Part shown: in pieces, positions 8,341-62,600 of the stretch
Layout: every line of letters begins with the position of its first letter
Numbering within the stretch: position 1 is the stretch's first letter
Assembly (NCBI GenBank): GCA_964017065.1
Contig: OZ024790.1
Location: 12,101,498-12,165,497, forward strand
DNA from: Haliclona indistincta
Taxonomy: Eukaryota > Porifera > Demospongiae > Haplosclerida > Chalinidae
Reading direction: 5' to 3'
DNA: 64,000 bases
Notes under the pieces: model-generated
What the model saw: only the letters and a program-made list of their open reading frames with translations
What the model was told of the DNA's origin: nothing
Databases searched by the model: none
Translations under genes and position numbers: made by a program

Positions 8341-8454
8341 TATTGTGTTACATCATGCTCGTGAATCTCATTATCTGGCTATAAATGTCGTTACAATGTA
8401 ATAAGCGTCTTGACCTGCATCCCGTGACAGACCCGTGCACGATTCAGTACAGAA
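8341..8454 (+). promoter_or_regulatory. Conserved proximal promoter of NLR 2
   Basis: The 110 bp before the ATG share ordered blocks with the 130 bp before NLR 4: CATCATGC(T/A)CGTGAATCTCAT, CGTTACAATGTA, TGCATCCCGTGA and GATTCAGTACAGAA just before the start. The spacing differs. Conservation next to two starts, inside otherwise diverged intergenic DNA, marks a likely promoter and 5' UTR. It is absent from the fused copy at 57.8 kb. Confidence 0.5.
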
Positions 8455-14945: not shown

Positions 14946-15294
14946 AAATTGTTATTAAAAATAATGAATTTTCAATTTTCTGTGCTATACTGACACACAC
15001 TGGCTAGCTAACATCATTATATACCATACTATACACTATGGTACAAATGTGTGTGTTTATTCATCAAAATCATGAACTTTACAAACATTCAACTCATAAT
15101 AATGATAATACCATGCTGTATGATATACCATGCTGTGTATTTGACCTTGTTTGATCATGACTGTGTACTTTCAACGTCTTTCAGGAAACAATACTCTGAT
15201 GTTGATAACATTATACTTCGTTGTTATGAAATTACTATGACGATAATTATTATACTGAAGTGCATGCATAAACAATAACAACAACATTGTAGGT
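14946..15294. other. Intergenic between NHL remnant and NLR 4 promoter
   Basis: AT-rich. A short frame at 15,051 has no homology that I recognise. Contains the imperfect repeat ATACCATGCTGT near 15,110-15,135. Nothing else supported. Confidence 0.4.
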
Positions 15295-15424
15295 ATATGT
15301 TGTGTTTATACATCATGCACGTGAATCTCATAATGTGACTATCGTTACAATGTACATACGTCGTTACCAAGAGTAGATAACGTACCCGCATGATGCATCC
15401 CGTGATTCAGTACAGAATCTAGAA
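15295..15424 (+). promoter_or_regulatory. Conserved proximal promoter of NLR 4
   Basis: Carries the same ordered blocks as the NLR 2 upstream region (CATCATGCACGTGAATCTCAT, CGTTACAATGTAC, TGCATCCCGTGATTCAGTAC) and ends in AGAAATGGCC around the start codon. Confidence 0.5.
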
Positions 15425-41748: not shown

Positions 41749-44700
41749 GTACTGTGATGCATACAGTAGGCCTCAAAATAAACTTCCCGTTTCGTCTGCG
41801 TTTTACAACCGTTTTTATAAGTACGCGTTGTTAAAAGACTGCAAGAAACGTACAAACGAACTGTCGTGATCACGCACTATCGTGGGATCGATCGTTTATA
41901 CGCAAAATATGTTCGCGCGTGCGCTCGCACGCAAGTTAGCTAACTGCGGCTGCTAGCTTGTTCAAAGCTTCTGCCGCTGCTCATGGAGGCGATTCGTGTA
42001 GGAAAGGCAGCGTCTAAGTACAGGAAGCTTGCTGTGCTCTTGGCTCTAGCGCTCATATCTTTTACACGTACACGCGCTGAATAGACTAGATGAGCGTTCG
42101 TTAGTACGCAAAATTTTCGTTAGTATGCAGAATTACTCGTTATTACGAATGACAATCGTTTAAACTAGACTGTTTTTAAAACGTACAAAAGCAATCGTTT
42201 TACTAATCGTAATAAAAGACAAAACGGGAAGTTTATTTTGAGGCCTACTGTATGTTATGGGTTTATTAAAGTTTGTTTTGCGACAATTGAGAATTTTGAT
42301 TTAATGCTTGTAAGTGGTAGGTTGTTTGTGCTATTTCTTACAAACTTGAAACAACCTTTCTTCCACCTATTTCCTCTATGTTTGCTTAGCTTGTAAGCAA
42401 CAGACAGATGACAGAGAAATGAGAACTATCACAGAAAATTGACTCAATTTTATAGAAAATTAATGTGAATATTTTACAAAACAGACACGTCATGCTGCTC
42501 ATACATAATTTTTATGCCTCAGTGGACGGAGCCTCGAGGCATACAGTAGTTCCATAGATTTATGAGACTACGTATCCGGGATTGGAAACGACGGTACGAT
42601 ATCAATAGCAACGCGTACAAACCACGTGAAGCACTCTGTGTCCGATTGAAAAAGCTGATTTTTGGGCTAATTTTTGGCCTTTGTGACTCGTTTGCTGGAA
42701 AGCTCAAAGTGCTTCAAGAAATCCAACCAGCTTTTCAGACTCTATGCGCTCTCTTCTCAGTGATGGTAAAAGCTTAAAACCGAGATTGCTTTAAAAGAGT
42801 CTTTTGCGTGCAGTTTTATAATTATCTCCAAACAAACAGTGCGTTTGCAGGGATCCCTCCTGTGAGTTACTGAAGCTTCTGGTGGTTTACTTGGTTGTTT
42901 CTAAGTGTCAACCAATGCCTGCTGTGTAAAGTAGTGTAGTATTTGCCTGCATTAGCAAATTGTGTAGATCAAAAATTAATTGTCGCAAGAGTAGAGAATT
43001 TTGCTGTTTTTAGTCGATTCACGGGAATCCCTTTTGGGACAATACAAAGCAAGTGGGAGCCAAGACAGCCTTGCTGTTTAAAAGATCGACAATTGTTCCA
43101 TACAACTGAATGGGTAGGAGCATCGATGCATTTGATTGTAGCATTCAGTGTGCCTGTGAAACACCGGGTTTCTCGTTCGTGTCAAGGCAAAAAGCCCTGT
43201 TACAGTACGAAAAATCGCTCAAGCTTCTATCAGCTCACAAACAAACATCTCTAACGTGTGAAGCCAAGTCGCACAGCATCTGCTGTGCGTGCATGAGTCT
43301 CCTTTAAGCGTTTGTCATTTGACCATTGCTGCGCAGCCATATTGCAAGTCCACCCTATAGCAACGGATGCAGAGTGTTTAAACGCACGTGCACTGTTTTC
43401 AATTCCAGTTACGTGTACAGCTTAGAACATGCCCGCGAGGGAGTTATCGAGAATACACGATAAATCACGACGTGGGCATGTTCTTGGCAACTTGTATCAT
43501 AGCAACACGAATGATGTTGTTAGCACATTTTATGTTACTCGAGTCTTCTAATACTAATGGGTCCTGTGATCAACACAATAATTATTCATTCTGTTAATCA
43601 CAGGACCCATTAGTATTAGAAGACTCGAGTAACATAAAAGAAGTGTGTGATTGCACAAGCATTAAGCTTTCTGGTAGGTTGGCTTTCAACTTTTACCTCC
43701 TCCTTATTTAACTTCATGGAGGGTTACCCATGTGGGTCATGTGACTTTACTATGTACAGCACATGACTTCCTGGAAAATATGCGATATTCCCTAGGGATT
43801 TCTCATATTGGACAGGAAATCACATGGCTTTTTTGCATATTGCCCTGGAGTCACATGATCTCCAGGGAAATATGCTCTATAAACTGTGAGCGGTGCCTTT
43901 GATCTAAAGGCCTGCTATGATACAAAGTCTCATAAATCTATGGTAGTTCGTTTGTCAATCAGTCATTCCGTGCGTTACAGCACCCTGAACGATGAGCTCT
44001 GAAACTAGCAATGCAAGTAGAACTGATATTATCTCACTTTTGAACATTTGAAACTTGTATACGAAGCTTCGTTCTCGAGGTATGGCGTAATTTGCTTGTC
44101 TTGCGATCAATGGCCATTGCTGGCGATCTAGAATTCTCCGTTTACAAAAATATCCCCCAGTTGAATGCCTAGAAGCTGATAGGTTAGAATAGACCTTTCG
44201 TTTAAGGCGATGGAATGTTGGCTCGTCATAGTTGCGTCATAATTAATTGTAATTTTTACATCCGTAGTAAGGCTGGGCCTTCATTTGCAGTGATTTTACA
44301 TTACCTCAATAGAGAAATGAACTACTTTCAAAGTGCGCGGGTTTTGCAATGCCGCCGAATATTCCTAAATAAGAGCAATAGAAGAAAACTTTCATCTTTC
44401 CTGTATACGCTTGCATTTGTTCCGTCGTTCTACTTACAGTGTGGGCCGAGTTCTGAGGTAACAGATACATGTACACCGACGAAGCAGTATTGATAACACA
44501 GCAGCCACCGACGAAGGTAACATAGCAACCACCGATGAAGCTGTGTTGTAGTGTGTTTGTCGTATGGCAGCTGTATACGCTTGCTCCAGGAACATCGTCC
44601 TCTATAAGTACAACAGTGTAGTCGGTACTGGTAGCTGCCATTAGCTCCCTGAGATGTGCTACTATAGACCGCTGGAAGTCAGCACACGCAGTAAGTAGAG

Positions 44701-47700
44701 CAACTGAACAAAAACTAACCGACACTATAGGAAGACGAAAGATCTCTTCCACTGCTCTTATTCTGGAATATTCGGTTGCGCTACAAAGCCCGCGCAGTTC
44801 AAAACTAGCTTATTCTCCGTTGATCGTAATGTAAAAGCAGCTTCAGCTTTACTACAGATATGATGTAAAAATTAATTTTTGATAATTGCATTCTTCAGTG
44901 TCTTAAACGAAAAGGTCTATTTCACTACAGGATAGCAGCGCATGTCCTGTGCATGTCTAAAGAAATTGTGTGTATTATTATGGATGCTATCTCTGTATCT
45001 CGTTCGTGTGCTGTGCCGTACTGAACTTTATGGACACGCCCAGTTGTCGTTAGCACTGATTGGCTTCTGATTGCATAGCTATTATACTCCATTGTGATTT
45101 TATGTTTTCAACTGCAACAACTGCGGCAAAAAACGCTTTAGCAACAATCTGACGGCTGCTATCATCGTTTCTACTGTCCACTAATCCTTAAGACACTTTT
45201 CAACTGACTGATGTCGATTTTCGAAACCACTTTGCAATTCGGCAGCAAAGCAATGCGCTTTTGAAATGAACGAATTTCACGAACCCTCGGCGTTTGAGCA
45301 CCGTTGCAACATTGTAGAGTTAGCTCCTTAGTTATGGTTTGCAGAAGGAGCTTTGCAGCTACAGCCAACCTGTTTGCGCACTGCTAACCAGAAGACAGCA
45401 AAGTGCTGACCACAACCGAGACAAGGTGTGTCAAGTGGGCGTGACCGTGAACACTGAGTAGGTAGCCATAGCTCTTGGCTTTTATAGGCTTTTTCTTGAG
45501 ATGTGTACGCACCCCCAGAGCCGTCCTGCTGTTTATATGGAATCTACAAGTACCTAGGTAGTCAACTATGGGCGCGTTTGTTGTCAGAGAGGTCCAAGAT
45601 GGCCGTCAAGGTGAGCCAGCCATACATAACTCGAGAACGAAAGCACTTTAGCAAAATCCACGAGTCACATTGCAAGCCATTGTCATGCTAAGCCTGTTCA
45701 TACCTTTACCGAGTTTCAGAAGTGAGCGATGGTCTCTGCAGCTCGATGGACAGAACGAATGAACGAATGAGTGACAAACCAAGTACCGTAACCCTCGCGC
45801 ATGCGCCGAGGGTTAAAAATCAATGTTTAACAGTTCTCTACATAGTAGAAACGATGATAGCAGCATTCAGATTGTCGCTACAGCATTGTTTGCCGCAGTT
45901 ATTGCAGCTTGAAACAGCTTTTGCCAACCAATGGAATAAACACAATCTGAAGTGGGCGTAACATTGAAATCTGAACGAGGTGAGAGTTCGCTCCGAAGCT
46001 ATGTATAGCCCACGTGTTGGATATGGCGTAAAGCTAGAAGACGTCCAGATCCAGTGTGCGATGGCGAAGTTTATGCCAAAATGCGTGTTGGCAAGGGCAG
46101 CGCCATTGGAATGCTATAGCTGAGTATACAGTTGCTATTGGCTGTGGTTTGTCGTGTAAACATTTGCTATGTCAGCAACCACACAATGACAATGATTTGG
46201 ACGCTTCAGCGCACAAGCCAGAGGTATGAAATTTGTCTACAGCAGTACAATACCCTAAGTAACACTGATCTGTTCGTTAAAGCTTCAGATGGCGGGTTAA
46301 AACTGACATACCCAGACGTGAACAAGCCTAGATATTCTAGCCTGACCTTACCGGCAGCAAGATTCTACGCACAGTAAGGTTCCTACACCACGCAGCATAA
46401 GTTGTAAAGGACTAGAAGCCTCTGTGAGTGTGATATTGACATCAACAAGGTTCTACTAGGCGTGCTCCTACTTTTAGGCTTGCTGCATCATGAATTGTCA
46501 GTATTATAGTCTCTTCCTTCATCCATTACTGTACTAACAAGTATCATGTTGTCAAATCATACCTGGACTTGATATTTTGCTGTCTGCGTCCTTAACCTCT
46601 TTACTATTTTATACCTTTCATTGAATGATTGGTAATATTAAACATTATTTTAAACTACACTCCTTACTCTCAAGACCCTGTGCACGTTCACATCTGCTAG
46701 ACTAGTAACTGCTGCTCACAGAGTTGTCAAAATGAAATAACATCTAACATAGAATACAACTAATAAGATCAAACTGATAGTGATCATAAAGTAACAGGAA
46801 CAAGTAATTAAAAGTAAAAAAGCTTTAATAAAAAAACTGAAAAGTGTAGGGATGACTCTTTAAAAAAGTAAAGGAACAAGATGGAATAATTCTAAGCTTG
46901 CAAATGTGAATGTCCCAAGTATCCCTACATTTGCGGCTTGCTGCGACAACTTACAACTGACAAATGCGGAATCCTCCTTCTATACCTTTAGAACCGTCGA
47001 TTACTTCATCGGACTGTGTCCTCCAAGCACAGCTACCTGCGGCATATTTACTACTGTCAACTACTTCATCGGACTGCGTCCTCCTAAACACAGATACCTC
47101 TAGTTATTTACAACCGTCAATTACTTCATCGGACTGCGTCCTCCAAACACAGATACCTCTAGTAAGATCTGTAACAACTTCTAGGTGTATGGCGTGTACA
47201 ACACAACAGGTAAACAAACAGACCCATACCTTCTTAGCGCCATCGGTAATGTCATGTCGGACGTATAGTGGGCCGGCAAAGTCCACTCCTATGTTTGTAA
47301 AGGGTGGCACCTCTTCAACTCTTAGTAGTGGTAGCGGTGGAGGTGGAGGTACTTGGAATGGAGGTCCTTCATGTATCCGGCAGACCACGCACTGTCGCAC
47401 TATTTGTCTGACAATGGTTCTCACGCGTACGATCCAAAATCTTCACCTAAGCTCAGTTAGAGTTGCCTTCGTCCCTGAGTGCATCACTTGTTCATGAGCC
47501 TTCCAGATTCTGAGGGTAGTGAGATGATGTTTCTCGTCAAGTAGTATCGGGTGAATTGTTGACCAAGGGAGATTTGTGTGTTGGAGTCGTCCTCTGCAAT
47601 GCCATAACTTATCCCCCGCCACAAACAGGTCGAATTGTGTTTTCCACTGAGAAAACCTTTTCTTGTTTGCTAGTGATCCCTGAGAGCTTTGGATCCATAG

Positions 47701-50700
47701 TATCTCGGCCTCATTCAGAAGGTCGTTGTGGGATTTTATGGAATGGTGTACTCTTTTCAGCAAGGAATAGCAGAATTTTAACACAAAGTAGGTCACCTGA
47801 AGTAGACGGGAGAGGGTGTTGTATTTTGTGCAGTCTATGACCTGATCAATACCGATGTCTATGTTAGCTGTCAGAAGACTGTGTATTACCGACTCTCGGA
47901 ACTCTTTACTTCTAGTAGACACTCGTTTGGCATTGGTGGAGTGACGAGATCAAGAAGTTTATCTCTGTCTCTGAGCCAGGTTGGTCCATGCAGCCAGAGG
48001 TCGGAGGTTGTTAGTTCTTGCATAGTGAGGCCTCTTGATGGCAAATCAGCTGGGTTGTGACGTCCCGAGCAGTGCGACCACTTCTCCGGTGGGATTAATT
48101 TCCTGACTTCAGCTACTCTATTCTGTACAAAGGTTTTCCAGCATTTGTCGGTTCCTTGGATCCAATGTAAGGCGACAGTAGAATCTGTGCAGCAACGGAA
48201 TGATGTCAACTGCAAGTCATCTTGAATGGATTCAGCAACAGATAAGGCGAGCAAGTAATACCGCAGAAAGCAGTTCTAATCTTGGAATGGTCTGCACTTT
48301 AAGAGGTGAAACTCTTGTTTTGCTAATGACAAAGTCAACATACACTTCAGACTCGGTCTCAGGCTCCAAATATACAACAGCATGCAGAGTATGCTTTGAG
48401 GGAAGCGTCACAAAAGCCTCACAGTTCGTGATGACAAGGCTGGTCTCTAAGCAACCGTGCATAACAGCGAGGGAGTTGGATCACAGTTGATAACGGGCAT
48501 GATGCAGTGCAGTCACACTTTTCTATTCCAAATCTTTCGCCTTTCTCTTTTGTAGAACCAAATGCAGATAGAAAGTATAGCATCTCTAGATATTCTGCTT
48601 CACTATCCTAAGACACGTTCTCGACCAGCATAGCCAAGGATCTCTAACACGTCGTCTGAATCGCGCCTAACATAAAGCACAGTTAAGTTGCACAGTCAGT
48701 AACAGCAACTTACTTGGATCCAGTCGACATATTCGTCACTAAAGCAATCGAAGCCGAGCTATCTAGGCCAGCCGTTCGTTGTGTATGAACTAAAATTCTC
48801 TTCGCGTGAATTCGTCACGTGTGTGAGTTACCCGTTTCCCCGCATCCCGGAAACGCCAAACTAAAATTCTCTAGTGTTCCACTGGACACCGAGTACGCGT
48901 CTTTCCCCTAGGTTACATTTCTCACTAGATCCCAATGTGATGTTGGAATACGTGTCATCTGTGTCGTCAAGTAGGCATGAGCCTATTAATTTTTCCTATT
49001 ATTCTTTTTAGAATTTCTCAAATTATAGCCCGATTATTCTTATTAAATGGACCGATTATTCTTGTGATTCTCAAAGCATCATGACAATTTACAACACAAT
49101 ATTTACAGGTAATTAATGAGCAACATTTGACAAACACTAAGCTGTTCAGTACAGATCATCTATTCCCTTTTGTTATACTGTAGCATAATAGAAGCTTCGA
49201 CGTAGTCTTCAAGAGCTCTTAACTGTTTCCTTGCAAAGGTATTGTTCAAAACAGAAAAGACTCTTTCTGCTGCAGCGGAAGAAGGTTGGAGAAGAAGGAC
49301 ATTTTGAGCAGTGTTACTCCATATTTGGATTGATGCGGTGTGATCAATAACCCGTTTTCTTGATAGCTCGGAAGATGTTGGAGGACGTAGCCTGGAGAGT
49401 AGGCTAGGCAGTGCAGTTTCCACACTACTAGAGGCTCGACTAAAGGACTGACTGTGAGCAGCATTGACGGTGAGATCTGACCCTGGCACCGACGTTGTCA
49501 AATCATCGACTTCTTCTTCACTACTCGTGCTTAGCTCGTACTCGTCACCATCATCGTCCACACGCATCAACTCATCGATCGCTTCTTCTACTGATCTTGC
49601 CATGTGGACCGCTTAGTACAGACATTACTGGGGGGCGTGGAAACATTGCACGTGATCATTTGCATTGGGATAAATTTCACCGATTATTCTCGAATAATTC
49701 TCAAAATTTTACACTACCTATTATTCTAAAAATTATTCCGGCATAATAAGCGCATGCCTATCGTCAAGACAAGAGAATTTTGTAGCTGGTTGAGGGTGTG
49801 GTTTCTTTTCTCTGTCAACGGCTGATCTTAATATCAGTGAGTTAGAGGTGAACTTCCTGAGGTGAAAACCACCTTTCTTGAGTATTGTTTTGGCTGTGTG
49901 GTAGAGACCATGTGCTTCGTTCTCGTTGCTATATAGCTCCAGTCACAAGGTCGTTGACATAGAAGGCTTTCAGTAACTTGTTAACTGTTTGAGGGTCAGC
50001 TTGGGTGTGTTCTAAGTGGTATTTAATGGTCGCGTTCAATAAGAAAGGACTCGATGACACTCCAAAGATGACTCTTGCTAATCGCAGTTCGATGATTTCT
50101 GGTGGTTCTGTCGTCAGGTCTTTCACCCACAGAAAACGTAACACATCCCGATCTTCCTCAGCAACCTGAATCATCAAAAACGGCTTTTCTATATCTGCCA
50201 CAACTGCCACAGGGTAGACACAAAATCTTAGAAGGAGATCTGCAATTCGTTGATGAAACTTAGGCCCTGTGTGTAGGCATTGGTTGAGCGAAGGTCCCTC
50301 ACTCTTGGCCGAAGCATCATACACTATTCTAATCTTGGTAGTGTCTTTATCCTTTCGGATCACAGCATGATGCGGTAGATAGTGCACCGCACGCTTTGAG
50401 TTGTCATTTTCATTGGGAGCCTTAGCAAGTTCCACTATGCCCTGCTGCAACTGGCCTTGTATGATTGAGTCGTATTCTCTCATGACTTCAGGGTTTTGTT
50501 TCAGACGTCGGAGGAGTCCCTTTAAGTGATCTTCACACAGTGTGTAATTAGGAGACAAGGGAGCATTGGAAGTATTCCAAGGTAGTGATACCTCATATCT
50601 TTCTCCTGTGAAACGAATTCTTTCTTCGAACTCTTCTAAAACAGAACCTTTGTTTGTTCTCAGCGACTCCAAATGACTCAAGGTCCCAGAAGGTACTCAG

Positions 50701-53700
50701 CTGGTTATCTAACGCATAGTCAGTGCTTGGATCAGTACCTGCATGAAGAACGTGAGTAACCGAGAGGTTCACGAGGCTGTTTTCAGAGTTTCCTTGAGAT
50801 GATGGGCCGGACAAAACCCATCCCAGTTTCGTGTGGATTGCCGTTGGACCTCCTTCACCATGACACACGTTTCCGGTGACTATTTTCCAATAATAGTCGG
50901 CACCCACAAGCAAATCAACCGGCAAACCATTAGTGGGACTAGGGGAATCAGCTAAATCTTGCCCTAGCAGATGTGGGTATGCTTGTATGCAATCAGCAAT
51001 GGGCTGCTCGGTCAAAGGCTCGCAAATGGTTGGGACGACATACAATGACAATGACATTTTTGGGTATCCCTTCAAGGTCAAACAGACATTAACAATAGCT
51101 AGGGCATACCTTCTTGGTACGTCTCAAGGATCCAAATGTAGCAATCGAGAGCGACTGTTCTCCGTATGACTTCAGGTTTAGTAGATCAAGAGCCCGTTCA
51201 CTGAGGTAAGACTTCTGGTTTCCACCATCCAAGAGCAGACGGACTTCCTGAGGGGTATCAGGTTGGTTAGGGTTGTGAATCGATACACCGGCTGTTTGGA
51301 GGAGTATAGCTTGAGTGTCGCTAGAGCAAATGGTTGTAGTCGTGTGGTCTGGTTTAAACGGAGGTGCAGTTGGGCTGAGATTAGAGTCTGCCAGGCTTGG
51401 AGGTCGGGGACCAGTCTTGTCGGCATCGCAGATGGAAGTGTGATGGCGTGCTCGGCATTTCTGGCATCGTGAGGAAGACCTACATGTCCGAGAAACATGG
51501 CCTCTGCGCAGACAGTTGAAGCATCTTCCATTACTCTTCAGGGCATGTCGGCGAGCGTCAGTAGTGACCACTGTGGTGCAGTTAGAAGATATGTGATCTT
51601 GCTGACAAAATTCACAGCGAGTTCCAGCATCTGAGATACGATTGTTGGCCATGAGCACTGCGTTAGTGGGGGTGATCGCTTCTCTGGGTTTGTCTTGCTT
51701 GAGAGACCAGCTAAAGGGTTGGCTCTCTCGTGGGCAGATAATTCTTGATTGAAGCTCTTCAGCAGTTTGTCCATGTCGAGGTTGGAGTCGCCCACTTCTC
51801 TACTGATGATGAGGCGCATATCTGGTGGCAGCTTTGTGAGGAGAACTGGTGAGAGAAGAGACCCATAAGTATCGGATGATATACCCAGCGAATGTAAACT
51901 ACGGATGTGTGTCACGGCGCTGTCATATAGCCTGCGCAGGTCTCGTAGGTGGCGGTCTGAAATCACTGCTTTTAATTTCATTAGGGTGTCCATGTGCCGG
52001 GATATAATCAACTGCCGGTCACAGAACCTCTTCTGAAGGACTTCAACAGCCTTATCATAGTTAGCGTTTGAGAGCGAGAAACCTGATATAGCTTCTAGTG
52101 CTGGACCTTGAATGAAAGATTTGAGGTAGCTAAACTTTTCTACACCACTCAGTGACTGGTTCTTGTCGACTGTAGTCTGAAAGGAGTCCCAGAAGGTCGT
52201 CCACTTTGTTGGGTCCTCTCGAAATGGGCAGATCATGAGTTTTGGTAGCTTAACCGCGGAAGATGAAGCTGCAGCAGGTCAATGGGCGGGAGCTACACTG
52301 GAATTCAGCTGTTTTATCCTCACCAGAACTGTGTGTGCAGTCCTTTTGATCGTGTCGGATTGCTGTATATCCTCGGCCACAGCGTCGTCCGTGTCAAGTT
52401 TGTCCCAAATTTCGGTGTCTAGGTTGTCGAGTACGGTTAGCTTTTCACGAATCGACATCTCTAAGGCGGCTAGCACAGTTTGATCCGGTGGGTCAGTAGT
52501 CAAATCAGCCTCGGCATCATTGATCATTTTCGTGAGAGATCCTCTGTGACCTGAGCGAAATCTTTCTTTTGTGCCAGGGCAGCCATTTTCTAGCACGTGC
52601 AGGCTTGGTAGTTAGCGTGTTCGCAGTAGATAGTAGTCAGGGCGTCGTCAAAGTATTCTTCAGTAGCTTAGTAGATCCTGGTCACGGCACCATGTAAGTT
52701 ATCCCCAGACTACCTCGGCTACTGAGTCTATCTGCCTACTGTACCAATCACTTTCTGACCAAAAATTCATAATAGTCAATAATGACATCATAATGTATAA
52801 TGATAACTAACAGACGGTGATGCTACCAGATCTCACATGAGCTATAGGCTACTAGTTTCTTACACTTCCCAGCGTAAGCTATACCCATAAGACCCCTGTG
52901 CTGTTGACAACTGGGCATTGGTCATTGTAAAAAGCTAGAGGCCTCTGTGATCGTGATATCAACATCAACATGCAAGCCTGGGACAGTACTGAGTCTATAG
53001 ACTAGCCATGATCATCATAGTGTTCCACTGAGTTGTTAGTGTTAGTCTCTTCTTCTATCACAGTGCTAAGAAATATCATGTTGTCAATTCATACTCCCAA
53101 CCTCTCTAACTAATTTAAACCTTTTCATTATTCTTGTGATTGCGATAATGACATTCCATGTTGTAAAAATGAAATAAAAGCTATAGCATAGAATACAGCT
53201 AATAAGTTCAAACTGATAGTGATCAAAAAGTAACAAAAACAAGTAAAGTAAAGAAGTTTTAATTAAAAAAAACTAGAAAGTGTAGGGATGACGCTTGCAA
53301 AAGTAAAGGAACAAGATGGTTGATACTTGCAAAAGTAAAGGAACAAGATGGGATGATGCTTGCAAAAGTAAAGGAACAAGATGGGATGATGCTTGAAAAG
53401 TATAAAGGAACAAGATGGGATGATGATTGCAAAAGTAAAAGTCCCAAGTATCCCTACATCAGCGGCTTGAAGGAGGACGCAGTCCGATGAAGTAGTTGAC
53501 AGTTGTAAATAACTAGAGGTATCTGTGTTTTGGAGGACGCAGTCCGATGAAGTAATTGACAGTTGCATGTAAATAAATAGAGGTATCTGTGTTTGGAGGA
53601 CGCAGTCCGATGAAGTAATTGACGGTTGCATGCAAATAACTAGAGGTATCTGTGTTTGGAGGACGCAGTCCGATGAATTAGTTGACAGTTGTAAATAACT

Positions 53701-56700
53701 AGAGGTATCTGTGGTTTGGAGGACGCAGTCTGATTAAGTAATTGACGGTTGTAAAAGGTATAGGAAGAGCATTTCACATTTGTCAGTTGCACGTCATAGC
53801 AGCAAACCGCTGATGTAGGGATACTTGGGACTTTTACTTTTGCAATCATCATCCCATCTTGTTCCTTTATACTTTTGCAAACATCATCCCATTTTGTTCC
53901 TTTACTTTTGCAAGCATCATCCCATCTTGTTCCTTTACTTTTGCAAGCATCATCCATCTTGTTCCTTTACTTTTGCAAGCGTCATCCCTACACTTTTTAG
54001 TTTTTTTATTAAAACTTTTTACATTAGAAATTGAGCGATAGTCGCTACTTTGAAGTGCATTTTGGAACGGACTTTTTTCAACTCTACTGCAACTTTTTTA
54101 GCTCAATAGATAGCTAATAGGCTGAAGTTTGCTATCCTGGGTCGACCAAGTGAAAATCTAGTTTGTGAAAGTCTGGAAGGCGAGTAGAAGTTCATCTTCC
54201 AACGACATTAGCTGAAGTGAATACGGTACTGTGCAAAAAAGGTTCCGATGCCTTCGCGAACGGTTCGCGAGCTATGGCGAACCTCTGACGACATAGTTCG
54301 CGTACAAGCGCGGTTCGCGAATGTTCGTGACCAGCATTTGCTCGCGAATCGAGCCACGTGTCTCAATACATGATATGTACGTACAGAAGAGTACTAGTGA
54401 GAACAGAAGGACAGTACCGTGGACAGAGCACTATCAAGGACAGAAGACTGAGTGAGAAGACTTGCTCTGGGTGATATGGACCACCACCACCTGTCGCTCA
54501 ACAGCAGTCACCAAGTCCACTGCAACCACCTCCGCCGCTAAACACAGGCATTCCGCAATCGCCACCGCTCAACTCTCAGGCAAGTCTGTCTCTCACCAGT
54601 CACTGCCACCCATCGCTCAGCAGTTACAAAGGCAGTCACCAAGTCCACGACCCCCTCGGCCGTCTTCCAGCATAAGGTGGTCCGTGATAGCTGTAACTGA
54701 CATGCCCTGACGGTGAAAACTAGTGACTCGAAGCTTTACATACGTAGTCACCAATCACCATGCTTGCATCCAGCTGCGTATTGATAGCCCTAAAGTTTTA
54801 CTATAAAGTGTCAGCATGAAAAAATACGCCACATTAACCTGCGGGCCTCGGTCAAAGTCGGTAAAACTGACAGCGCGAGAAGCTGTCACGGTGCCAGGAT
54901 GGACGCAGGATACAACGTCACTCGATCAGTAGTAAATAACTCGTTTGATTACAGACAACTAAGAAGAAAGACAGGTACACGTACGCGTGAACAACAGCAA
55001 CAACAATAACAGTAACAGCAGCAACAGAATTACTATTCACGTACATGCTGGTTTACGTATATAAGTACAGTAGCTTCGCGAATAGGTTCGCGCCCATCAG
55101 GTCGCGATCATGCTCACAAATAGTCGCACGCGTCTTAAAGGCACAGTATTGGTATCGCGAAACTTAGGCTGAAATCAGTCGCGATATGTCGTGCAACTTT
55201 GGAACCTTTTTTTGCACGGTACCGTATACGGACCTAAGTTTTGATAGTATACGGAAATTGAAACAGGATGTCGTTATTAGCTGGCAATGTCATATAGTTT
55301 TTAGCTCAATACTGCCTAGAGCAGCCCACTTGGATCCTGCTGATGCGGCCTCCGGAAACAACAACGCAAGCTTGTTGAAGAATCCATGTAGCATGCAATT
55401 CTTGAGTACTTTTGATACTCCTTCGCTGAGTATGATCCCAGTTCTGTACAGATCAGTCCTTGTTCTCCACACACACATTTTACTCATTATTCCATTTAAT
55501 AACACAAGCAAGCACTTAGCTAATGCTGTTCCAAAACAGCGTATAAGTGATATTTTTAGTAGTATGCAATCAGAATTGTCTACTGTAACACTGGAATTTA
55601 CTTATCAGTCTAAAATGAACATATTATGTAAAACCAACATAAATCCAAGAGATGAATTGTCTCACAGTCCCATGCACCTTTAGGTGTACTTGATAGCAGC
55701 TATCTACAAAATGAATAATGTACAAATATTTTTACAGAGCATCTTGTAACAGATGCCGAGAGGCTGACTAGTGACAAGGCAGACCTGCTTACTAGACTGC
55801 AGAATCGGGAGAAGGAACTCGTGTCAACTAAAGAATGTGAGCATTCATTGATGTGTTCAATTAAGAATCTGACTCGATCATTACAGTATTGAGAATGAGA
55901 CAGAAAGCTATTTCAGGTATGCAGGCAACAGCTGTTGTGGAGGAGAGAGAAGAGAGGATCAGTCACTTGAAAAAGGTAATCAGATGACAGCTGCTAAACT
56001 TGTGTGTTGATTATGCTGTGTTAGGAGGTCGAAGAATTGAAAAGAAAAATAGTGAAAAAGTGAGTTAGGAAGGAAATCTCATAATTTTTCAACTGTTCTT
56101 TATGTCTCTCAGTGAAGAAAGGGAAAGCAATGAAATTGAAGACTGGAAGAGCAAACTTGTTATCAAGACTGATGAGCTCAATGAAGCTGTCGAGAGAATT
56201 TCTGAAGTATGCATGCATGCACGTGATTATACTAAAAATATTTCATTTTATATAAAGTTACATTCACAGAATGTCATTGACGATCGTCAATTGAAGAACA
56301 ATAGTGACAAAATTAATGAGCTAAAAACTCAGTGAGTGTTCAAACCTAATAATTGTTCTTTTGATTTCTTCATTGATCTTCATAGAATCAAAAGTCTAAT
56401 GACAAAGACTGAAAAAACAGGTATAATAAACAGGGGTTCAGTATGAAATTTTCGGACCCATGCAGGCCGAACAAAAGGGTGGTGGGTAATGTTATTTTTG
56501 AAAAAAGGCCATTTACTTCAAAAAATAATAATAAAGCCATTTTCTGGAGATTTTGAGCTATTAGTACCACAATTGTGTAGATCAGTAGCAGTGTAGAGCT
56601 GCATCAGTAATGCATGTTGGTATCTTGACCCTTCACCCTAGGCCTAGCTCATGAATATTAATTCAGCTAATAATTATTATAAGAATAATAATTATGTTAG

Positions 56701-59700
56701 TAGACTGCGTGAATATAGTTAACTGACTGTATGAATATTATTATTAGTTCTGAATATCATTAAGTGTTGTCATAATTGACCTAGTGGGAACTTTTGGCCT
56801 GAGGTACAAAATTTTCTACACTGATATACCCTGCTTTGTATCAGTTTTGCAATGTTAGATAACATAGGCTGATAAAAATTTAATGACAATTAACATGTGA
56901 AGTTAACTGAAAATAACGGACAATTAAGGATTGAAATTTTCTATTGTAAAATACCACACTCTCTGCAGGATCTATTAAGTCGATCACACAACAAGCTATT
57001 GCTCGTGGAATGGCTGTCTCAAAGGAAGGTCACCTCATTATGGCTGATTGGTCAAAGCGTGGTGTGACCATCATCAATATTACTAGTGGAGAAGTGATTA
57101 GAAGCTTCGGAGGATTTGGATCAGGACACATGGAATTTGATCTTACAGAAGGAGTGGCATTGACGCAAGATGGTCACATCGTTGTGGCTGACTCTTCCAA
57201 TCATCGTTTACAAGTGTTGACAGAAGAGGGTGCCTTTGTAGCTGCTGTTGGCTCCAGAGGATCTAAGCCACAGCAGTTTCATTATCCACATGATATAGCT
57301 GTTGATCACAACGGAAAATTATTTGTTACTGAGCTTTGGAATCATCGTGTCCAGGTCCTTAATCCTGATTTGAGCTTTTCGCATTGTTTTGGCAGTGAAG
57401 GAGACAACCCTGGGCAACTTTGTGGTCCACGTGGAATAGCTATTGATCAAGATGGAATGGTGTATGTCAGTGACTTTAGCAACCACCGAATTCAGAAATT
57501 TGCTTCAAGTGGTATCTTTTTGGCTTCTTTTGATCATAAGAAGTTGTTTAATTCCTTTAGTCCGTATGGCTTGTGCTTTGACAGCAACAATCTACTCTAT
57601 GCTACTGATATGCAGAACAGTGTAGTGTGTGTCTTCAATACTAGTGGGAAGTTTCTAGGATACATTGGTAATAGTGATGGTAGTAGTTTTGATCGTCCTC
57701 GATTCATAGTTTCTGATAAAGACAGACTGTACATTAGTGATGACAATGGAGTGGTAACGAACAAGTGCTTCCAGCAGCCACTAGATTTAAGATGTTCTTC
57801 TGCTCACATTGCAAAGTTTTCTGAGCATATTGAAGACTGGGAGGAGCTGGCACCATATTTTGGCCTTACCGAGGCAGAGCAGCAGGACATACGAGCCAGT
57901 CACGCCCTCCAATACAAGCTACAGAAACGCAAGATGCTCTGGAAGTGGGTCAGGAAGCTGGGAGAGAAGGCAACCTACCGTGAGCTGATAAAAGTGTTGG
58001 AAGAAGCAGGCGAATCTCTACTAATTTCCAGAGTTAAAGAGCTATTTGAGGACTCATATTCTGAAGCACCTCACATCATTGTGAACTCGTTCCAACAGTA
58101 CCTCAAAGATTGCTACAGTACCTCAGCTTCTGATGGAGTGGCAGATAGAGAAGATTGGCCGCGACTAAAACATCCAATGATTTTTGTGAACCCGGAGTTA
58201 GTCTCGAAGGACAAGAAGACAAGTCTGTCTACACTCGACATCTTCAAAGACAAGAAAGTGATGCTTGAAGGCACATCAGGTTCTGGTAAGACCACTCTAA
58301 TGAGGCATGCCTGCCAGCAGTGGGCCGAGGGCAAGCTATTTAATGATGTGGATCTCCTCATCCATCTAACCCTGGCAGATCCCACTTTGTGGTCTGCCAA
58401 ATGTTTGGAAGACATTATCCCTCATCCTACATCCATTGAGATGCGCAGAACAGTAGCTGACTACATAATGGAGCAAGGAGGCAAAGGATGCTGCTTTATA
58501 CTGGATGGATGGGAGGATTTGCCCGAAGAGTTGCAAACATCTTCTATTCTTCATGATTTTCTTAAAGGCAGTCGGCCGGGATTGGCACTACCAAAATGTT
58601 CGTTTATTGTCACCACTCGTCCCATAGCTTCTCCCTCCCTACAGCCACTAGTCACCACCACTGTTGAGATCACTGGCTTCTCATCTGAGAGTGTTGATAC
58701 CTATGCTAGTCAGTATCTGACACAGCAAGGCAAGGACCCTGCTGTCTTCATAACAGCTCTTAATGATAACCATCATGCTCGTGGCTTGTGCAGTTTGCCC
58801 ATCAATGCAGCCATCTTAATGCATCTGTTTCTTACTATTCAAACAGGTCTTCCCACTACTCAGACCGAGCTGTTCAACTGTTTTATTCTTAACCTTCTTC
58901 TTCGTCATCTTGTCGCCAAAGCGAAATACAAGCATGCTAAGTCTTTGCTTCGCTACTTTTCAGATCTTCCATCAAATGAAAATAAAGCATTCAATAACCT
59001 TTGTCTAATATCTTATCATTCCACATTCAGTGGTAAAGTAGCCTCTCAGAGTAACCAGCTAATCTCATCTGATGACCTTCATAAAGCCGGTCTACAGGAC
59101 GTGCAGGAGACCCTGGGTCTAATGAAGGTACACCAGCAGCTGACCTGGTGTGGCTATGACCCTCACTATGGGTTCCTTCACTCATCAGTTCAAGACTTCT
59201 TATGTGCTGTGAGGATGAGCCAGCTGAGTCCAGAGCAACAGGTGAAGGACTTTATATGTATAATGACCAGTAATCCAACATCACTAGTACTTCGCTTCTA
59301 TGCTGGCATAACAAAGCTTGAGAGTGAAAGGGTCTGCAAATATTTGAGTCGAATAGGAATGAATCCACCTGGTCTTTATGTTTTTAATAACTTGCGTACT
59401 GCTTCTTCTGACCCACGTAGACTATTTTTGACATATCTGCATTGTCTTTACGAAGCAAAGCATAACAAGGTATTATGTAAGTTTGACAGTAAAGACTTAG
59501 TGTGCTTTGATTTCTATAGACTTTCTATTCATGATCTCAATGTGATATGGTATTTCATGTTGGACATGATTGAAAAATGTCATCCTCAAGTTTTGACTTT
59601 CTATTTCTATGCGTGTGAAATTAATGATCACGGCATTGAGTCAGCTGTTACAACTTTTATCAACCAGACAAACACTCTTAATTGCTCAATAGGTTTTTTT

Positions 59701-60414
59701 GGACTCTTCTTTGGTGATGCTGGTATAACATATAATGGCGTTAGAAGTTTGACTAAATTGATGAGAACAAAAAATGTAAGTTTAATTGAATTTCGTCTGC
59801 TATCGAAAATTGATTTTATAACCTTGAATCTGTTAATTGGTGCTGTACCTACCTCAACTATAACAACTCTTGGTCTATTTCCATTTGGCTCGCCCTTGAC
59901 AAGCAGACATATTTACCATTTAGTTTTTCTCATTTACCAGGCGAGACATTTGCAAGCGTTGTGTCTTGGTGATTCAATGCAAGCAGAGAGTTTTCCACTT
60001 CTATTAATGGCTGCTAGAAATGTGGAACAATTAGCATTTCAAACTATGTTAAGTGATCAGCACCTTCAGGAGATAGGTCCAATACTGCAGTCAAATACTA
60101 GTTTAAAGCATTTGAACATCATAGAGAATTGTCATCCCAATAAGCGCTGTTTTTACAGTTTTGAATCACTTTGTGAGTTCATTAAAGTTATCACAGCACC
60201 TGAATCAAGATCACAACTAAGGATTCTTGTTACTGAATATGCAGAAGATATCTATACAAACAAAGAGTTAATGACAACCGTAAATAAATTTGGGGAATGT
60301 CGTGGATATCCTTTAACTTTTTTTACTGAGAATCGGCAAATTGAAAGAGATTTTTTGATTGGCTTGAAAAATGTTCTTTCTCTACCTAAATCTTTGGTCA
60401 CAGGAAGAACGTAA
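40132..60414 (+). CDS. Gene B: death-fold/coiled-coil/NHL/death/NACHT/LRR fusion (12 exons)
   Basis: Exons inferred from GT-AG sites and phase: 40132-40141, 40197-40493, 40541-41298, 41360-41375, 41431-41748, 55738-55836, 55887-55975, 56025-56059, 56113-56206, 56270-56331, 56386-56420 and 56969-60414. They total 5259 nt, or 1752 aa, with every junction in phase. Exons 1-11 match gene A in order, length and phase, except small differences in exons 2, 3 and 7. In place of gene A's short last exon, gene B has a 3.4-kb exon encoding the NHL propeller and a whole NLR minus its first 10 or so residues. Intron 5 is 14 kb and full of transposons, so continuity across it is the least certain step. Likely a cytoplasmic immune sensor with death-fold regions at both the start and middle (inference). 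Confidence 0.6.
41764..42250. mobile_element. Mariner-type MITE in gene B intron 5
   Basis: Ends CAGTAGGCCTCAAAATAAAC and its exact reverse complement, flanked by TA on both sides (41,762-41,763; 42,251-42,252). 487 bp, non-coding. Confidence 0.85.
42251..42551. other. Intron sequence between elements
   Basis: About 300 bp of AT-rich intron DNA. Nothing recognised. Confidence 0.4.
42552..43943. mobile_element. 1.4-kb TIR element with 5-bp duplication
   Basis: CCATAGATTTATGAGACT at the left and its reverse complement at the right, flanked by TAGTT (42,547-42,551 and 43,944-43,948). Internal frames (42,562; 42,943) show no recognised domain. Contains the perfect hairpin listed separately. Confidence 0.75.
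43524..43640. repeat. Long hairpin inside the TIR element
   Basis: TTTTATGTTACTCGAGTCTT through GGGTCCTGTGATCA is mirrored after a 25-bp AT-rich loop, with a stem of nearly 50 bp. Probably a nested palindromic MITE. Confidence 0.85.
44192..44917. mobile_element. TIR element with TA flanks
   Basis: GACCTTTCGTTTAAGGC at the left corresponds to GTGTCTTAAACGAAAAGGTC at the right, with TA on both sides. 726 bp. Non-coding as far as seen; the - strand frame 44,752-44,306 has no recognised domain. Confidence 0.7.
44918..45281. other. Intron sequence between elements
   Basis: Unrecognised single-copy-looking DNA in gene B intron 5. No feature supported. Confidence 0.4.
45282..45814. mobile_element. 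AACCCTCGG-family TIR element
   Basis: Starts AACCCTCGGCG and ends CGCCGAGGGTT. Its right half is the reverse complement of the element inserted in NLR 2 (shared blocks GCGAGGGTTACGGTACTTG and GGCTCACCTTGACGGCC, with changes). Non-coding. Confidence 0.75.
45815..46395. other. Intron sequence, nothing recognised
   Basis: Short frames only (for example 46,132-46,377), without recognisable domains. Confidence 0.4.
46396..47165 (-). repeat. Left direct repeat flanking the BEL/Pao element (LTR-like)
   Basis: Shares ordered sequence with 52,925-53,830: AG(A/G)CCTCTGTGA, ATGAAATAA, CAAACTGATAGTGATCA, AAGTGTAGGGATGAC, GTCCCAAGTATCCCTACAT, then GGACTGCGTCCTCC-type units. In such a pair the repeats are probably diverged LTRs. 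The integrase frame breaks off where this repeat begins. Confidence 0.5.
47104..47922 (-). pseudogene. BEL/Pao integrase (truncated)
   Basis: Frame 47,922-47,443 has the H2C2 zinc-binding region (LTTLRIWKAHEQVMHSGTKA, matching the His arm). Frame 47,424-47,104 has RQCVVCRIHEG and the catalytic core start TNIGVDFAGPLYV (first Asp) with HLEVVTDL (second Asp). The remainder is missing. A frameshift separates the two frames near 47,440. Confidence 0.78.
47886..48462 (-). pseudogene. BEL/Pao RNase H region
   Basis: Overlapping frames carry KVQTIPRLELLSAVLLARL and CTDSTVALHWIQG, then SGRHNPADLPSRGLTMQEL. These motifs are typical of the Pao RNase H domain (TDS as an active-site segment). The two frames imply a shift near 48,240. 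Confidence 0.78.
48972..49760. mobile_element. hAT-type element nested in BEL/Pao
   Basis: Ends TAGGCATGAGCCTATTA and TAATAAGCGCATGCCTA, flanked by the 8-bp duplication TCGTCAAG (48,964-48,971 and 49,761-49,768), the diagnostic hAT length. 789 bp. Its one sizeable frame (next entry) encodes only the transposase dimerisation end. Confidence 0.9.
49160..49603 (-). CDS. hAT transposase C-terminal dimerisation-domain protein
   Basis: 147 codons, MARSVEEAIDELM to MLQYNKRE. The C-terminal 70 or so residues carry the hAT dimerisation motif (LQPSSAAAERVFSVLNNTF, LEDYVEASIMLQYNKRE). The N-terminal half is acidic and Ser-rich. There is no catalytic DDE core. The frame has its own start and is intact, so it is either a deletion derivative or a kept small protein that could pair with full transposases. 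Confidence 0.75.
   Translation of the reverse strand: MARSVEEAIDELMRVDDDGDEYELSTSSEEEVDDLTTSVPGSDLTVNAAHSQSFSRASSSVETALPSLLSRLRPPTSSELSRKRVIDHTASIQIWSNTAQNVLLLQPSSAAAERVFSVLNNTFARKQLRALEDYVEASIMLQYNKRE
49929..50681 (-). pseudogene. BEL/Pao reverse transcriptase region
   Basis: Shows YLPHHAVIRKDKDTTKIRIV, then YDASAKSEGPSLNQCLHTGP and VAVVADIEKPFLMIQV. The usual catalytic YVDD appears as YVND, and the A in EKAF is P here, so the enzyme is unlikely to be active. The frame begins at the protease-RT linker. The C-terminal part of RT is interrupted before the nested hAT element. Confidence 0.8.
50593..51658 (-). pseudogene. BEL/Pao zinc-knuckle and protease region
   Basis: Frame 51,658-51,089 has Cys/His knuckles (CEFCQQDHISSNC, CFNCLRRGHVSRTC, CQKCRARHHTSIC). 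The protease segment LLLDGGNQKSYL has DGG where an aspartic protease needs DSG. Frame 51,081-50,593 continues with LLVGADYYWKIVTG and TKLGWVLSG. A shift separates the frames. Confidence 0.78.
51538..52596 (-). pseudogene. BEL/Pao gag-like region
   Basis: Frame 52,596-52,279 is a helical N-terminal gag segment. A shift or stop near 52,240 precedes frame 52,236-51,538 with FREDPTKWTTFWDSFQTTVD and FSYLKSFIQGPALEAISGF, the DUF1759-type capsid region of Pao elements. Confidence 0.78.
52692..53820 (-). repeat. Right direct repeat flanking the BEL/Pao element (LTR-like)
   Basis: The inner edge reads TGTAAGTTATCC on the + strand next to the primer-site-like sequence. From about 52,925 it parallels the left repeat. 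The left repeat lacks the first 230 bp, so one LTR is truncated or the boundary is misread. Confidence 0.45.
53240..54030. repeat. Foldback repeat with 62-bp internal tandem units
   Basis: Arms 53,240-53,475 and 53,795-54,030 mirror each other (AAGTGTAGGGATGACGCTTG, AAGGAACAAGATGGGATGAT, GTCCCAAGTATCCCTACATC). Between them about five units of GGAGGACGCAGTCCGATGAA plus AACTAGAGGTATCTGTG-type sequence repeat. A half copy lies at 46,840-47,165. Confidence 0.8.
54224..55224. mobile_element. 1-kb TIR element with TA flanks
   Basis: CGGTACTGTGCAAAAAAGGT at the left and its near reverse complement (GGAACCTTTTTTTGCAC and GGTACCG) at the right. TA lies on each side (54,222-54,223; 55,225-55,226), as in mariner-like elements. 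The frame at 54,462-54,710 is low-complexity Ser/Pro. Confidence 0.75.
55225..55737. other. Intron sequence before the coiled-coil exons
   Basis: A 165-codon frame (55,186-55,683) starts in the TIR of the preceding element and has no recognisable domain. It is not supported as a gene. Confidence 0.35.
55738..56420 (+). CDS. Gene B exons 6-11: coiled coil
   Basis: Six short exons (55738-55836, 55887-55975, 56025-56059, 56113-56206, 56270-56331, 56386-56420) encode Glu/Lys/Leu-rich heptads: EHLVTDAERLTSDKADLLTR, ERISHLKKEVEELKRKIVKK, WKSKLVIKTDELNEAVERIS and DKINELKTQIKSLMTKTEKT. They match gene A exons 6-11 at equal length, except a 15-nt difference in the second. A coiled coil before NHL repeats is the arrangement of TRIM-NHL proteins, though no RING or B-box is visible here. 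Likely mediates oligomerisation. Confidence 0.78.
56421..56968. other. Gene B last intron with homology breakpoint
   Basis: The first 200 bp match the corresponding gene A intron (CAGGGGT, GTAGAGCTGCATCAGTAATG). Similarity stops near 56,620, before the position of gene A's terminal exon. The rest is AT-rich and unique, and ends at the acceptor CTCTGCAG. Confidence 0.6.
56969..60414 (+). CDS. Gene B terminal exon: NHL propeller fused to death-NACHT-LRR (NLR 6)
   Basis: One 3446-nt exon; the longest ATG frame is 57,010-60,414 (1134 codons). Counting from 57,010, residues 5-250 form five or six NHL blades (EGVALTQDGHIVVADSSNHR, DIAVDHNGKLFVTELWNHRV, GPRGIAIDQDGMVYVSDFSN). The NHL tail NKCFQQ (to residue 256) is followed directly by PLDLRCSS, entering the death domain where stand-alone NLRs read ALDVRCSS. 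NACHT has GTSGSGKTT (Lys427) and FILDGWEDLP. LRRs extend to LPKSLVTGRT. Both halves are intact. Separate copies of the two parts, with their own stop, spacer and start, exist at 7.8-11.6 and 14.2-18.1 kb, so this is a gene fusion by deletion. Confidence 0.85.
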
Positions 60415-60450: not shown

Positions 60451-62600
60451 TTTTATTTTTAATTTAATTTGTTTTTGTTTTTGTATACAAAGGGTAATGC
60501 AATGCAATTTATACAATAAATAGAAAAGTTACGACTAGATCGGCAAAATGAAAGTGCGACGGATGGAGATGGCATTGCTCCGTTGGATAGCAATTGAGAG
60601 GCGTTGGATGAGATAAGATGTTGATTTGGGGTCACCAGAATGTTGATAGAGTCTTTTACCAAGTGATTTAACAAAAGAGAGAATCTTGGACCCGAAAGCA
60701 CCAGTGGTTTCAATAGCAACGGGAACAAAAATGTGGGAACTGAGCAGATCTGCATTTTTCACTCTCTTGAGGTCCTCAGCTTTGGCTGCAATCCCGCCAG
60801 CAGAGTGAACAGCAAGACTCCTGTGAGACTGAGCAAAGGTGTCAGGACAGGTAGCATCCCACACCAGAGGTTTTCCAGATGACCAGTGAGCAATTGTAAC
60901 TCCATCAGGACGTGTTCCATCACTACAAGACAGGCCAGTAAGAGCTGGAACATGGGCAAAGGAAGTCATTTAAAACAGAATGTCTGTGATGCCTGCCTTC
61001 ACTCCACCTGCAGCTGCATGAGACCATGCCTGCATAGAGGATTAACTAGATCATTGCAGTGGCGACAGGAATGGGGGGTGCAGGCGGAGGCCCACAGCAA
61101 TACGGAGTGTATCATCATCCAGCCGGCATTTAGCCAGACACCAGATTCCCAGGAAGCAGCCAACAAGCAAGCTGTATCTTCTTCATCATAAGCATTATCA
61201 AGGAGTTGATCAGCTAGAGCTGCAGCTCTTGGATGGTCCCAAGCCTTTTGAGAGCACTGAGGTATAGCCTCGCCAGAGGGGGGTGGTAAATCCATGCCTG
61301 ATGACACAGCCTCTTAAACACTGGCATAGGACAAGGAGGGAAGATCTTGAAGAGAAAATTTCATGAGCCAGCTGAGAAGTTGCATGGACTGAAGATAAAA
61401 AGCAGGAGCCACATCTACAGCCTGGCGGACCCTCAAACCACCCAACCTCACAGGCAAAGAAGCCTGGAGCCATGCTGCACTATTGGTGTCCAAGAGGGTG
61501 TTAGTCACATCACCCGAAACAGACATGAGGACTGAGTCATACTCCATAAGAGAGGGAGAAAAAAACAAGGAGCCGACCGCAGGAGTAGCTTTGGAATTGC
61601 GAAGGAAGCTCAAAGGAGAAGAAGAGCATCGTGAGCTGCAAGATGGCAGAGGTGATTACCCATTCTCTGGAGGGCTTCGACTTATGCATAATAGCAGCAG
61701 ACATACAGATCTCATCACCCAAGTGAGAGCCCAAAAGAGATGCTTGAGATAGAGGAAGGAACTGAGCACCAGAGAGCAGAGACAAGGTGGAGTCATTGGC
61801 AGAAATTATTTCCGACTTGGAATTATTCAAAATGTGCCCCAGAGATTCGCCGGCACCCTTGACCAGCTCCAGATCTGACAAGATGCAGTCAAGGTTAAGT
61901 CCAATGGTCACATCATCAAGGTGCAGGATGCTCAGGTCGGAACTAAGCTCCTGATCGAGATGGTATAATGTGAGACAAAACAGGAGAGGGCCCAGAGGGT
62001 CACCCTGCATGCTGGACTCCTTCGGCAGATAGAATTTGGTGTTCACCCAGAAGAGGCAAGAAGAAGATGAGTAGGCTGAATGGGCAAGGTTGTAAATATC
62101 CGGAGCAAGTTTACTCACAGCTTCCAGCATCCTATCCCGGTAAACACGTCCTTGAAATCAAGTTTCACTAGTGCATCTGAGAGGGGAGTAACAGCCTCGC
62201 TGCATGAACAGCAGCTTCTGCACCACCCCTAACACCATAACCCAGCTGTCTGAGGCTAAGAAGTCCAGTCATATCCTCCATCACAGACAAGCCTGCCACT
62301 TTAGCCACCAAACGGCTAAGGGTACAGCCCACAGAGGTGTGCCTGCATGATTCCTCCCTGCTTTTTGCGAAGTGCGACCAGAGCGGCACTGAAGAAAGGG
62401 GCCTAACAGCAGCTGGAGTCTCTCCACGAATCACCATAGAACAAAAAGCTGCGAGAGTAGACAGCAAGGGGGAGACCCCAGGATGAAGGGTGGGAGCAGA
62501 TTCTTGAGATGTTGAGGTCGCAAATGGTCAGGGTCCCCAGCAGAGCCATCGGAAAAGGACTCCAGCTGCTGTTGGAGCCATTAATTGTAGTGGAGGATCG
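60451..62600 (-). mobile_element. Non-LTR-type retroelement with DATC C-terminal region, degenerate
   Basis: Broken - strand frames cover a reverse transcriptase. VRPLSSVPLWSHFAKSREES is the fingers region. Near 62,150-62,175 KLDFKD is motif A. GDPLGPLLFCLTLYHLDQEL is motif B and LHLDDVTIGLNLD is motif C, with LDD. The C-terminal part has RPDGVTIAHWSSGKPLVWDA, then TCPDTFAQSH and YLIQRLSIAIQRSNAISIR, an arrangement common in invertebrate RT proteins. At least three frame changes and several stops make it inactive. The A/T-rich tail at 60,445-60,490 suits a LINE 3' end. Confidence 0.75.

Follow-up and report, generated by a model that had tools for sequence, protein, structure and literature searches.

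The NHL propellers of TRIM-NHL proteins bind protein or RNA, and APAF-1-type proteins combine a STAND ATPase and a WD40 propeller in one chain, in which the propeller follows the ATPase; integrated domains are, to our knowledge, better documented in plant NLRs than built-in extra domains are in animal NLRs. In sponges, e.g. in Dysidea avara, Death-NACHT-LRR proteins (NLRD) have been described as bona fide NLRs that form large and in some cases clustered families (PMC12909245, where NACHT-WD40 proteins are named as well); the term "NHL" does not occur in the main text of this publication. Zebrafish NLR-B30.2 genes are described as having gained a domain that is also present in TRIM proteins and as having then multiplied, with gene conversion between the copies (PMC4852459). 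The legend of Figure 1 of a 2021 study on Halichondria panicea receptors names "NHL, repeat" together with LRR, WD40 and DUF4062, NLRs being part of the figure (PMC8242945), and NHL and NACHT are both named, in separate contexts, in PMC11639872.

In the window (the whole analysed stretch of 64,000 nucleotides of the Haliclona indistincta contig OZ024790.1), a single open exon on the forward strand (56,969-60,414) joins an NHL propeller in frame to a Death-NACHT-LRR receptor. The reading frame is open from stop to stop over 1,154 codons (56,950-60,411; stop codon at 60,412-60,414); the exon begins at 56,969 directly after CTCTCTGCAG (1,148 aa if read from 56,968), and the count from its first Met at 57,010 gives 1,134 codons, the number reported in the earlier note. 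The Pfam scan detected NHL (2e-30), Death (57,805-58,038; PF00531, 1e-11, above cut-off) and NACHT (58,258-58,725; PF05729, 4e-22, above cut-off), the last with the P-loop GTSGSGKT, which we take to be the Walker A motif. In the AlphaFold model, residues 15-266 (57,010-57,765) form a beta-propeller of 23 strands in six blades (blade 1, to about residue 60, with a pLDDT below 60), followed by a Death bundle, by NACHT and, beginning at about residue 844, by an LRR-like array of beta-alpha units. The LRR assignment is one of predicted fold (59,497-60,327; array 844-1120, pLDDT mostly 80-96), the Pfam LRR model matching neither the whole exon nor its C-terminal part by itself; in Foldseek, the exon model matched NLRP3, NOD2 and NLRC4, the alignments spanning about 830-1,000 columns. 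At the joint (CAGCAG-CCACTA, 57,772-57,783), CAGCAG passes directly into CCACTAGATTTAAGATG at 57,777/57,778, and the junction peptide reads CFQQ-PLDLRCSS. Counted from the joint, the first Met of the NLR half comes 52 residues in, within the Death domain, which has become internal by the fusion, so that a separate intact NLR cannot begin there at an ATG. The stretch 56,969-60,414 is a real gene fusion, as had been claimed and as the open frame, the Pfam matches and the AlphaFold model agree, and it encodes a predicted receptor of putative function.

Like the sponge NLRD described in PMC12909245, the encoded protein has a NACHT domain, as bona fide NLRs do, and the order Death, NACHT, LRR with Death ahead of NACHT; in NLRD, however, Death is the N-terminal domain, whereas here the NHL propeller precedes it in the same exon and is itself preceded, in sibling genes, by further death-fold exons. 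The most similar known history that we found is that of zebrafish NLR-B30.2 as given in PMC4852459, where an NLR likewise gained a domain shared with TRIM proteins; the B30.2 domain is C-terminal and variable, whereas the NHL propeller is N-terminal and conserved and it is the LRR end that varies. Pfam found no B30.2 domain in the fused exon and the 5' exons scanned, which sets the gene apart from NLR-B30.2. The propeller fold is that of the TRIM-NHL proteins (its identity to the NHL domains of known structure in TRIM2, TRIM3, TRIM71 and Thin is 26-34%), but in place of RING and B-box before NHL, death-fold exons were found among the exons examined. With APAF-1-type and NACHT-WD40 proteins it has in common the combination of a STAND ATPase and a beta-propeller; here, in contrast, the propeller is of the NHL type and precedes the ATPase, and the LRR end is retained. 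The earlier note did not know the architecture from any described NLR family: no NHL-Death-NACHT-LRR protein was found described in the open-licence literature at abstract level, except for the ambiguous legend of PMC8242945, and because of the NHL in that legend, which may mean that a NACHT protein with NHL has already been depicted for Halichondria panicea, the novelty of the domain combination is not certain. Judged by its domains, the fusion would add a new domain variant, with a presumptive function, to the NLR family.

The unfused arrangement is present in two other modules of the window, both on the forward strand. In the first (8,261-10,746), a decayed NHL end with TAA is followed by a spacer with a shared upstream stretch and by a separate NLR that is broken near residue 724; in the second (14,915-18,088), it is followed by a 477-bp spacer and a separate stop-free NLR (protein P0017). 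In both, the TAA stands directly after CAGCAG/CAGCAT (8,290 and 14,944), i.e. at the place of the joint, the distances from stop to NLR ATG (8,455 and 15,425) are 161 and 477 bp, in line with the 160-480 bp given before, and the NLRs begin with MAEPMFNQTALDV or MANPLFNPTALDV. Relative to these copies, the fused exon lacks the NHL stop, the NLR upstream region, the NLR start and about ten NLR residues, as the earlier note had stated. In the 330 bases 5' of the NLR (16 unfused and four fused copies surveyed), GTGAATCTCATTAT (up to 2 mismatches) was found at 12/16, the TATA-like CTATAAAT at 8/16 and CATCCCGTGA (up to 2 mismatches) at 13/16 unfused NLRs, each against 0/4 fused ones; ATTCAGTACAGAAATGGCC (up to 4 mismatches) was found at 14/16 unfused NLRs, and a form of it is retained in two of the further fused copies, L011 and L012. 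The "conserved promoter" previously assigned to the spacer holds as far as shared upstream motifs are concerned, but these occur in part of the unfused copies only, and a promoter role is putative. Splicing, with the spacer as an intron, was rejected as an alternative to fusion, because the NHL stop TAA directly follows CAGCA(G/T), because the third window copy has no GT at that place, and because in five C5 relatives (L014-L018) the NHL exon closes with CYQQ and a stop; others end at CYQE (L021) or elsewhere (L019, L020, L023).

Among the matches listed in a genome-wide search with the NHL half as query were five complete NHL exons (at least 82% identical), all of them on contig C8: the window copy, L010 (11.351 Mb), L011 (12.078 Mb; fused locus C8:12077613-12081124), L012 (11.970 Mb; fused locus C8:11970470-11966968) and L013 (12.200 Mb). 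Four of the five are fused in frame into Death, L013 ending with a stop; the window fusion is not unique, since L010, L011 and L012 lie on the same contig. The junction peptide is CFQQ-ARLDLRCSS in L010 and CFQQ-ALDVST(K/N)MAKSLFNPTALDVRCSS in L011 and L012; the latter junction is 48 bases longer than that of the window copy, includes an 11-base direct repeat (GCACTAGACGT) and, judged from its sequence, could be an older or a younger form. The frame of L010 stops after the Death domain. About 225 bases past this stop (reverse complement, about 2,820-2,870), GCTACCTCCCTAA and TTAGGGAGGTAGC form an inverted repeat, which has the look of a small MITE-type element inserted there. Because several gene copies have the NHL-NLR join in common, they look like a small new receptor subfamily and not like a single accident. 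On another contig, an NHL match (G000:C4:220790-221575, reverse strand) lies in an open frame of 2,626 aa, the longest NHL frame among the matches listed, and could be another unusual NHL fusion.

L011 and L012 form complete predicted four-exon genes from ATG to stop (1,623 and 1,619 aa; GT-AG introns with matching phases; exon ends set by eye, the first two introns being short, 48-55 bases), with a start exon, a Death-domain exon and a 350-aa exon situated 5' of the fused exon at a distance of about 2 kb. The predicted proteins have the domain order Death, DED-like region, NHL, Death, NACHT, LRR; in L012, the copy tested, the 5' Death exon matched Pfam at 5e-5 (above cut-off), and the 350-aa exon of the siblings gave a weak DED match (0.0068, below cut-off). 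With the AlphaFold model of the E2-E3 region (mean pLDDT 79.2), Foldseek returned no match with E below 0.001. The order NHL-death-NACHT-LRR given in the earlier note is correct, but its extent was set too short, the sibling genes having a Death domain and a DED-like region ahead of NHL. Upstream of L012 exon 1 (about C8:11974510-11975000), stacked BLAST matches mark a directly repeated unit of about 38 bases.

In the window, exons of the same gene type lie at 40,132-41,831 on the forward strand (ATG at 40,132; Death-like exon at about 40,190-40,501, Pfam Death 0.013 and thus below cut-off; others at 40,519-41,831), 15 kb before the fused exon as against about 2 kb at the two sibling loci; they are a candidate 5' end of the fused gene, with a provisional E2-E3 splice. 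Four small candidate coiled-coil exons (56,025-56,059, 56,113-56,206, 56,270-56,331 and 56,386-56,420, forward strand) would splice in phase into the NHL exon and, together with the fused exon, keep the frame open to the stop over 1,223 aa (GT-AG ends picked by eye); sequence similar to the second and third adjoins L010 and L013. Neither RING nor B-box was detected by Pfam in the 5' exons of the window copy (scanned outside the 14-kb interval 41.8-56.0 kb) and of L012, Death (above cut-off in L012 only) and a weak DED being found instead. Retroelement-like open frames, as judged by eye, are situated on the reverse strand on either side of the fused exon, in the interval that separates it from the 5' exons (47,446-52,611) and behind it (61,540-62,157). 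At 27,361-31,181 lies another 5' portion of a Death/coiled-coil NHL gene of this type, with small coiled-coil exons at about 30.7-31.0 kb; no NHL exon was found behind it.

In other public assemblies, the search with the whole-exon protein yielded 157 proteins, and NHL, Death and NACHT are combined in three of the 120 listed (P0001, P0002, P0006); the other listed NACHT proteins, down to 28% identity, contain no NHL by Pfam annotation. When the NHL part was used (1,809 proteins), NACHT again occurred, among the 120 listed, only in these three; the named matches include the Amphimedon B-box-NHL protein P0301 (39% identical) and crustacean, mollusc and coral proteins. P0001 has a different junction (CFQQ-ALTLDVICS); the NHL of P0002 matches that of L011, with Leu where the old NLR start Met stood, and that of P0006 matches L012, the protein ending early at 874 aa. 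The window's own fused protein is absent from the 120 listed. At least 8 of the 120 are identical to frames of this array, so that some of those contigs come from the same or a very close species, perhaps from the same animal, and the three fused proteins are not fully independent evidence.

In the NHL DNA tree (18 rows), the four fused copies form one group (89/89; 92% of the bootstrap trees); two many-stop rows (11951044, 11955271) were kept, and the decayed 11918348 and 11931226, one short piece, six distant C5 rows and pieces below about 140 residues were left out. The NHL protein tree (14 rows including P0001, P0002 and P0006) requires two changes, shows one clade in 20% of the bootstrap trees and has unsupported forks around the fused copies, P0001 standing beside the window copy (87/84). 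The tree of the NLR half (15 rows; without 11907973, 12109982, 11958937, L013 and L010, which have stops or are partial, and without unfetched C8 copies) is mostly unresolved; the fused copies are not one group there, and a single group is not rejected (p-AU 0.479). Since the NHL parts of L011 and L012 differ at 5 sites only, part of the evidence reflects recent duplication. Among L011, L012, P0001 and P0002, near-identical NHL-Death-NACHT parts carry strongly different LRR ends, which have been swapped: P0002 has the NHL of L011 and an LRR end closest to that of L012, and the LRR end of L011 is closest to that of P0001. Independent multiple fusions are possible but less favoured, as all junctions in this genome have their CAGCAG start in common and extend to the same CTAGA stretch; because of this common joint and the grouping of the fused NHLs, a single fusion with later small changes is more likely. 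One origin of the fusion, followed by duplication to at least four loci and later recombination of the NLR half, is thus the most likely course suggested by the sequences.

The genome search with the NLR half gave 57 matches (52 candidates scored out of 846 in a first look). Near-full-length copies, i.e. C8 copies at least 81% identical that reach residue 835 or beyond, number 24 among the matches listed: three fused (open frames of 1,154, 1,188 and 1,185 codons) and 21 unfused, 20 of which have no internal stop. Outside this set are two further, broken C8 copies (12109982, cut at residue 724, and 11958358, 75% identical with 18 stops) and shorter pieces. The statement in the earlier note that most neighbouring copies are dead is therefore wrong for the NLR halves; the decayed part is the adjoining NHL halves. 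None of the 15 unfused NLR copies in the 260 kb analysed has a complete NHL, and among the matches listed a complete NHL exon precedes 3/3 near-full-length fused but 1/21 unfused NLRs (L013), a contrast with p of about 0.002 by simple counting of related copies, hence not a clean test. Eight unfused NHL pieces share start residue 113, by which the contrast is not independent; one truncated NHL module was probably amplified. Stops are absent from the fused NHLs and present in several unfused pieces.

For the NHL of the four fused copies, pooled dN/dS was 0.33. The pairs of the window copy with L010 and L011, in which 50 and 66 of 810 sites differ (6-8%), gave 0.33 (p 2e-4) and 0.26 (p 3e-7), each below neutral expectation. 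In the NLR (14 rows, three fused and 11 unfused; divergent 11952487 left out), pooled dN/dS was 0.25-0.41 for residues 1-480, 0.45 for 481-520, 0.66 for 521-600, 0.81-1.01 for 601-840 and 1.87 for the last 38 residues. In most full-length copies, these variable last residues close with a near-constant LPESL(I/V)TGRT-like tail (window 60,379-60,411). Over residues 113-270, the fused NHLs (0.30) are not separable from the decaying unfused fragments (0.49; bootstrap P 0.11, Fisher p 0.27), a control that makes dN/dS a weaker proof of selection. These values suggest that the fused propeller is under selection; past constraint or gene conversion can explain the low dN/dS of both fused and unfused NHLs. 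That the fusion is maintained, as the earlier note concluded, is favoured by the three further fused loci, two of them with complete predicted genes, but the argument from dead neighbours fails for the NLR halves, and dN/dS does not set the fused NHLs apart from decaying ones.

We consider it probable, at roughly 0.6, that head-to-tail NHL and NLR genes were fused in frame by a deletion, likely once, that the fused gene was duplicated and that it is made as one predicted protein. In the ancestral state, the gene of a death-fold/NHL protein would have stood head-to-tail ahead of an NLR gene; a deletion from the NHL stop to the NLR start, to which the joint in the sequence points, would have connected both in frame. 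According to the gene models, the fused gene would be expressed as one protein from the start of the NHL gene, where expression must begin for an NLR without its own upstream region. That the joint is a misassembly of tandem modules is very improbable: the array is indeed repetitive, but the join recurs at four loci with three junction types, with a fourth in P0001, and P0002 and P0006 lie on other contigs, though partly perhaps of the same animal. It is rather improbable as well that the NHL gene lends promoter and 5' end only and that the NLR half is what is kept, in which case the propeller would have to remain open, since any stop in it would silence the NLR as well. The lost upstream region of the NLR and the stop-free fused NHLs, compared with several unfused pieces with stops, would fit such a passenger; a polar constraint, however, bars stops and not missense changes, and the dN/dS of 0.33 in the fused NHL, weakened by the control, speaks against it.

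More weight, although we still hold it to be unlikely, is due to a neutral chimera in a fast-turning array, i.e. a by-product of deletions between modules that is functionless as a fusion and carried along by duplication until it decays. The many rearranged pieces of the array, the broken L010 and the early end of P0006, the failure of the dN/dS control to separate fused from decaying NHLs and the five differing sites between L011 and L012, which make the evidence partly one of recent duplication, are consistent with it; 1,154-1,188 codons nevertheless stay open at three loci, the 5' exons are complete in two, and the dN/dS of the pairs of the window copy with L010 and L011 is low despite 6-8% differing sites. 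With somewhat less than even confidence, we propose that the fused genes constitute a lineage-specific subfamily of NLRs. A whole death-fold/NHL adaptor (Death, DED-like, coiled coil or helical linker, NHL) would have been placed before a complete Death-NACHT-LRR receptor; the product would be a combined sensor and adaptor that has a conserved propeller arm beside its two death-fold arms and that has been retained, through duplication, at four or more loci with reshuffled LRR ends. The single chain would comprise an N-terminal Death domain, the DED-like region, the NHL propeller, Death, NACHT and LRR. Its variable LRR end may act as the sensor, and the conserved NHL propeller may bind an invariant partner, protein or RNA, by which the receptor would be anchored or regulated. 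Oligomerisation of NACHT would gather the death-fold domains of several chains and start signalling, so that sensor and adaptor would be united within one chain.

A stretch of about 900 kb of one contig contains the gene pair in its unfused state, the fused gene, several variants of the junction and decayed copies, so that the path from neighbouring genes to a fused receptor can be followed directly. The conserved propeller as opposed to the variable LRR end leads to a testable prediction as to which part of such a receptor senses and which anchors or signals.
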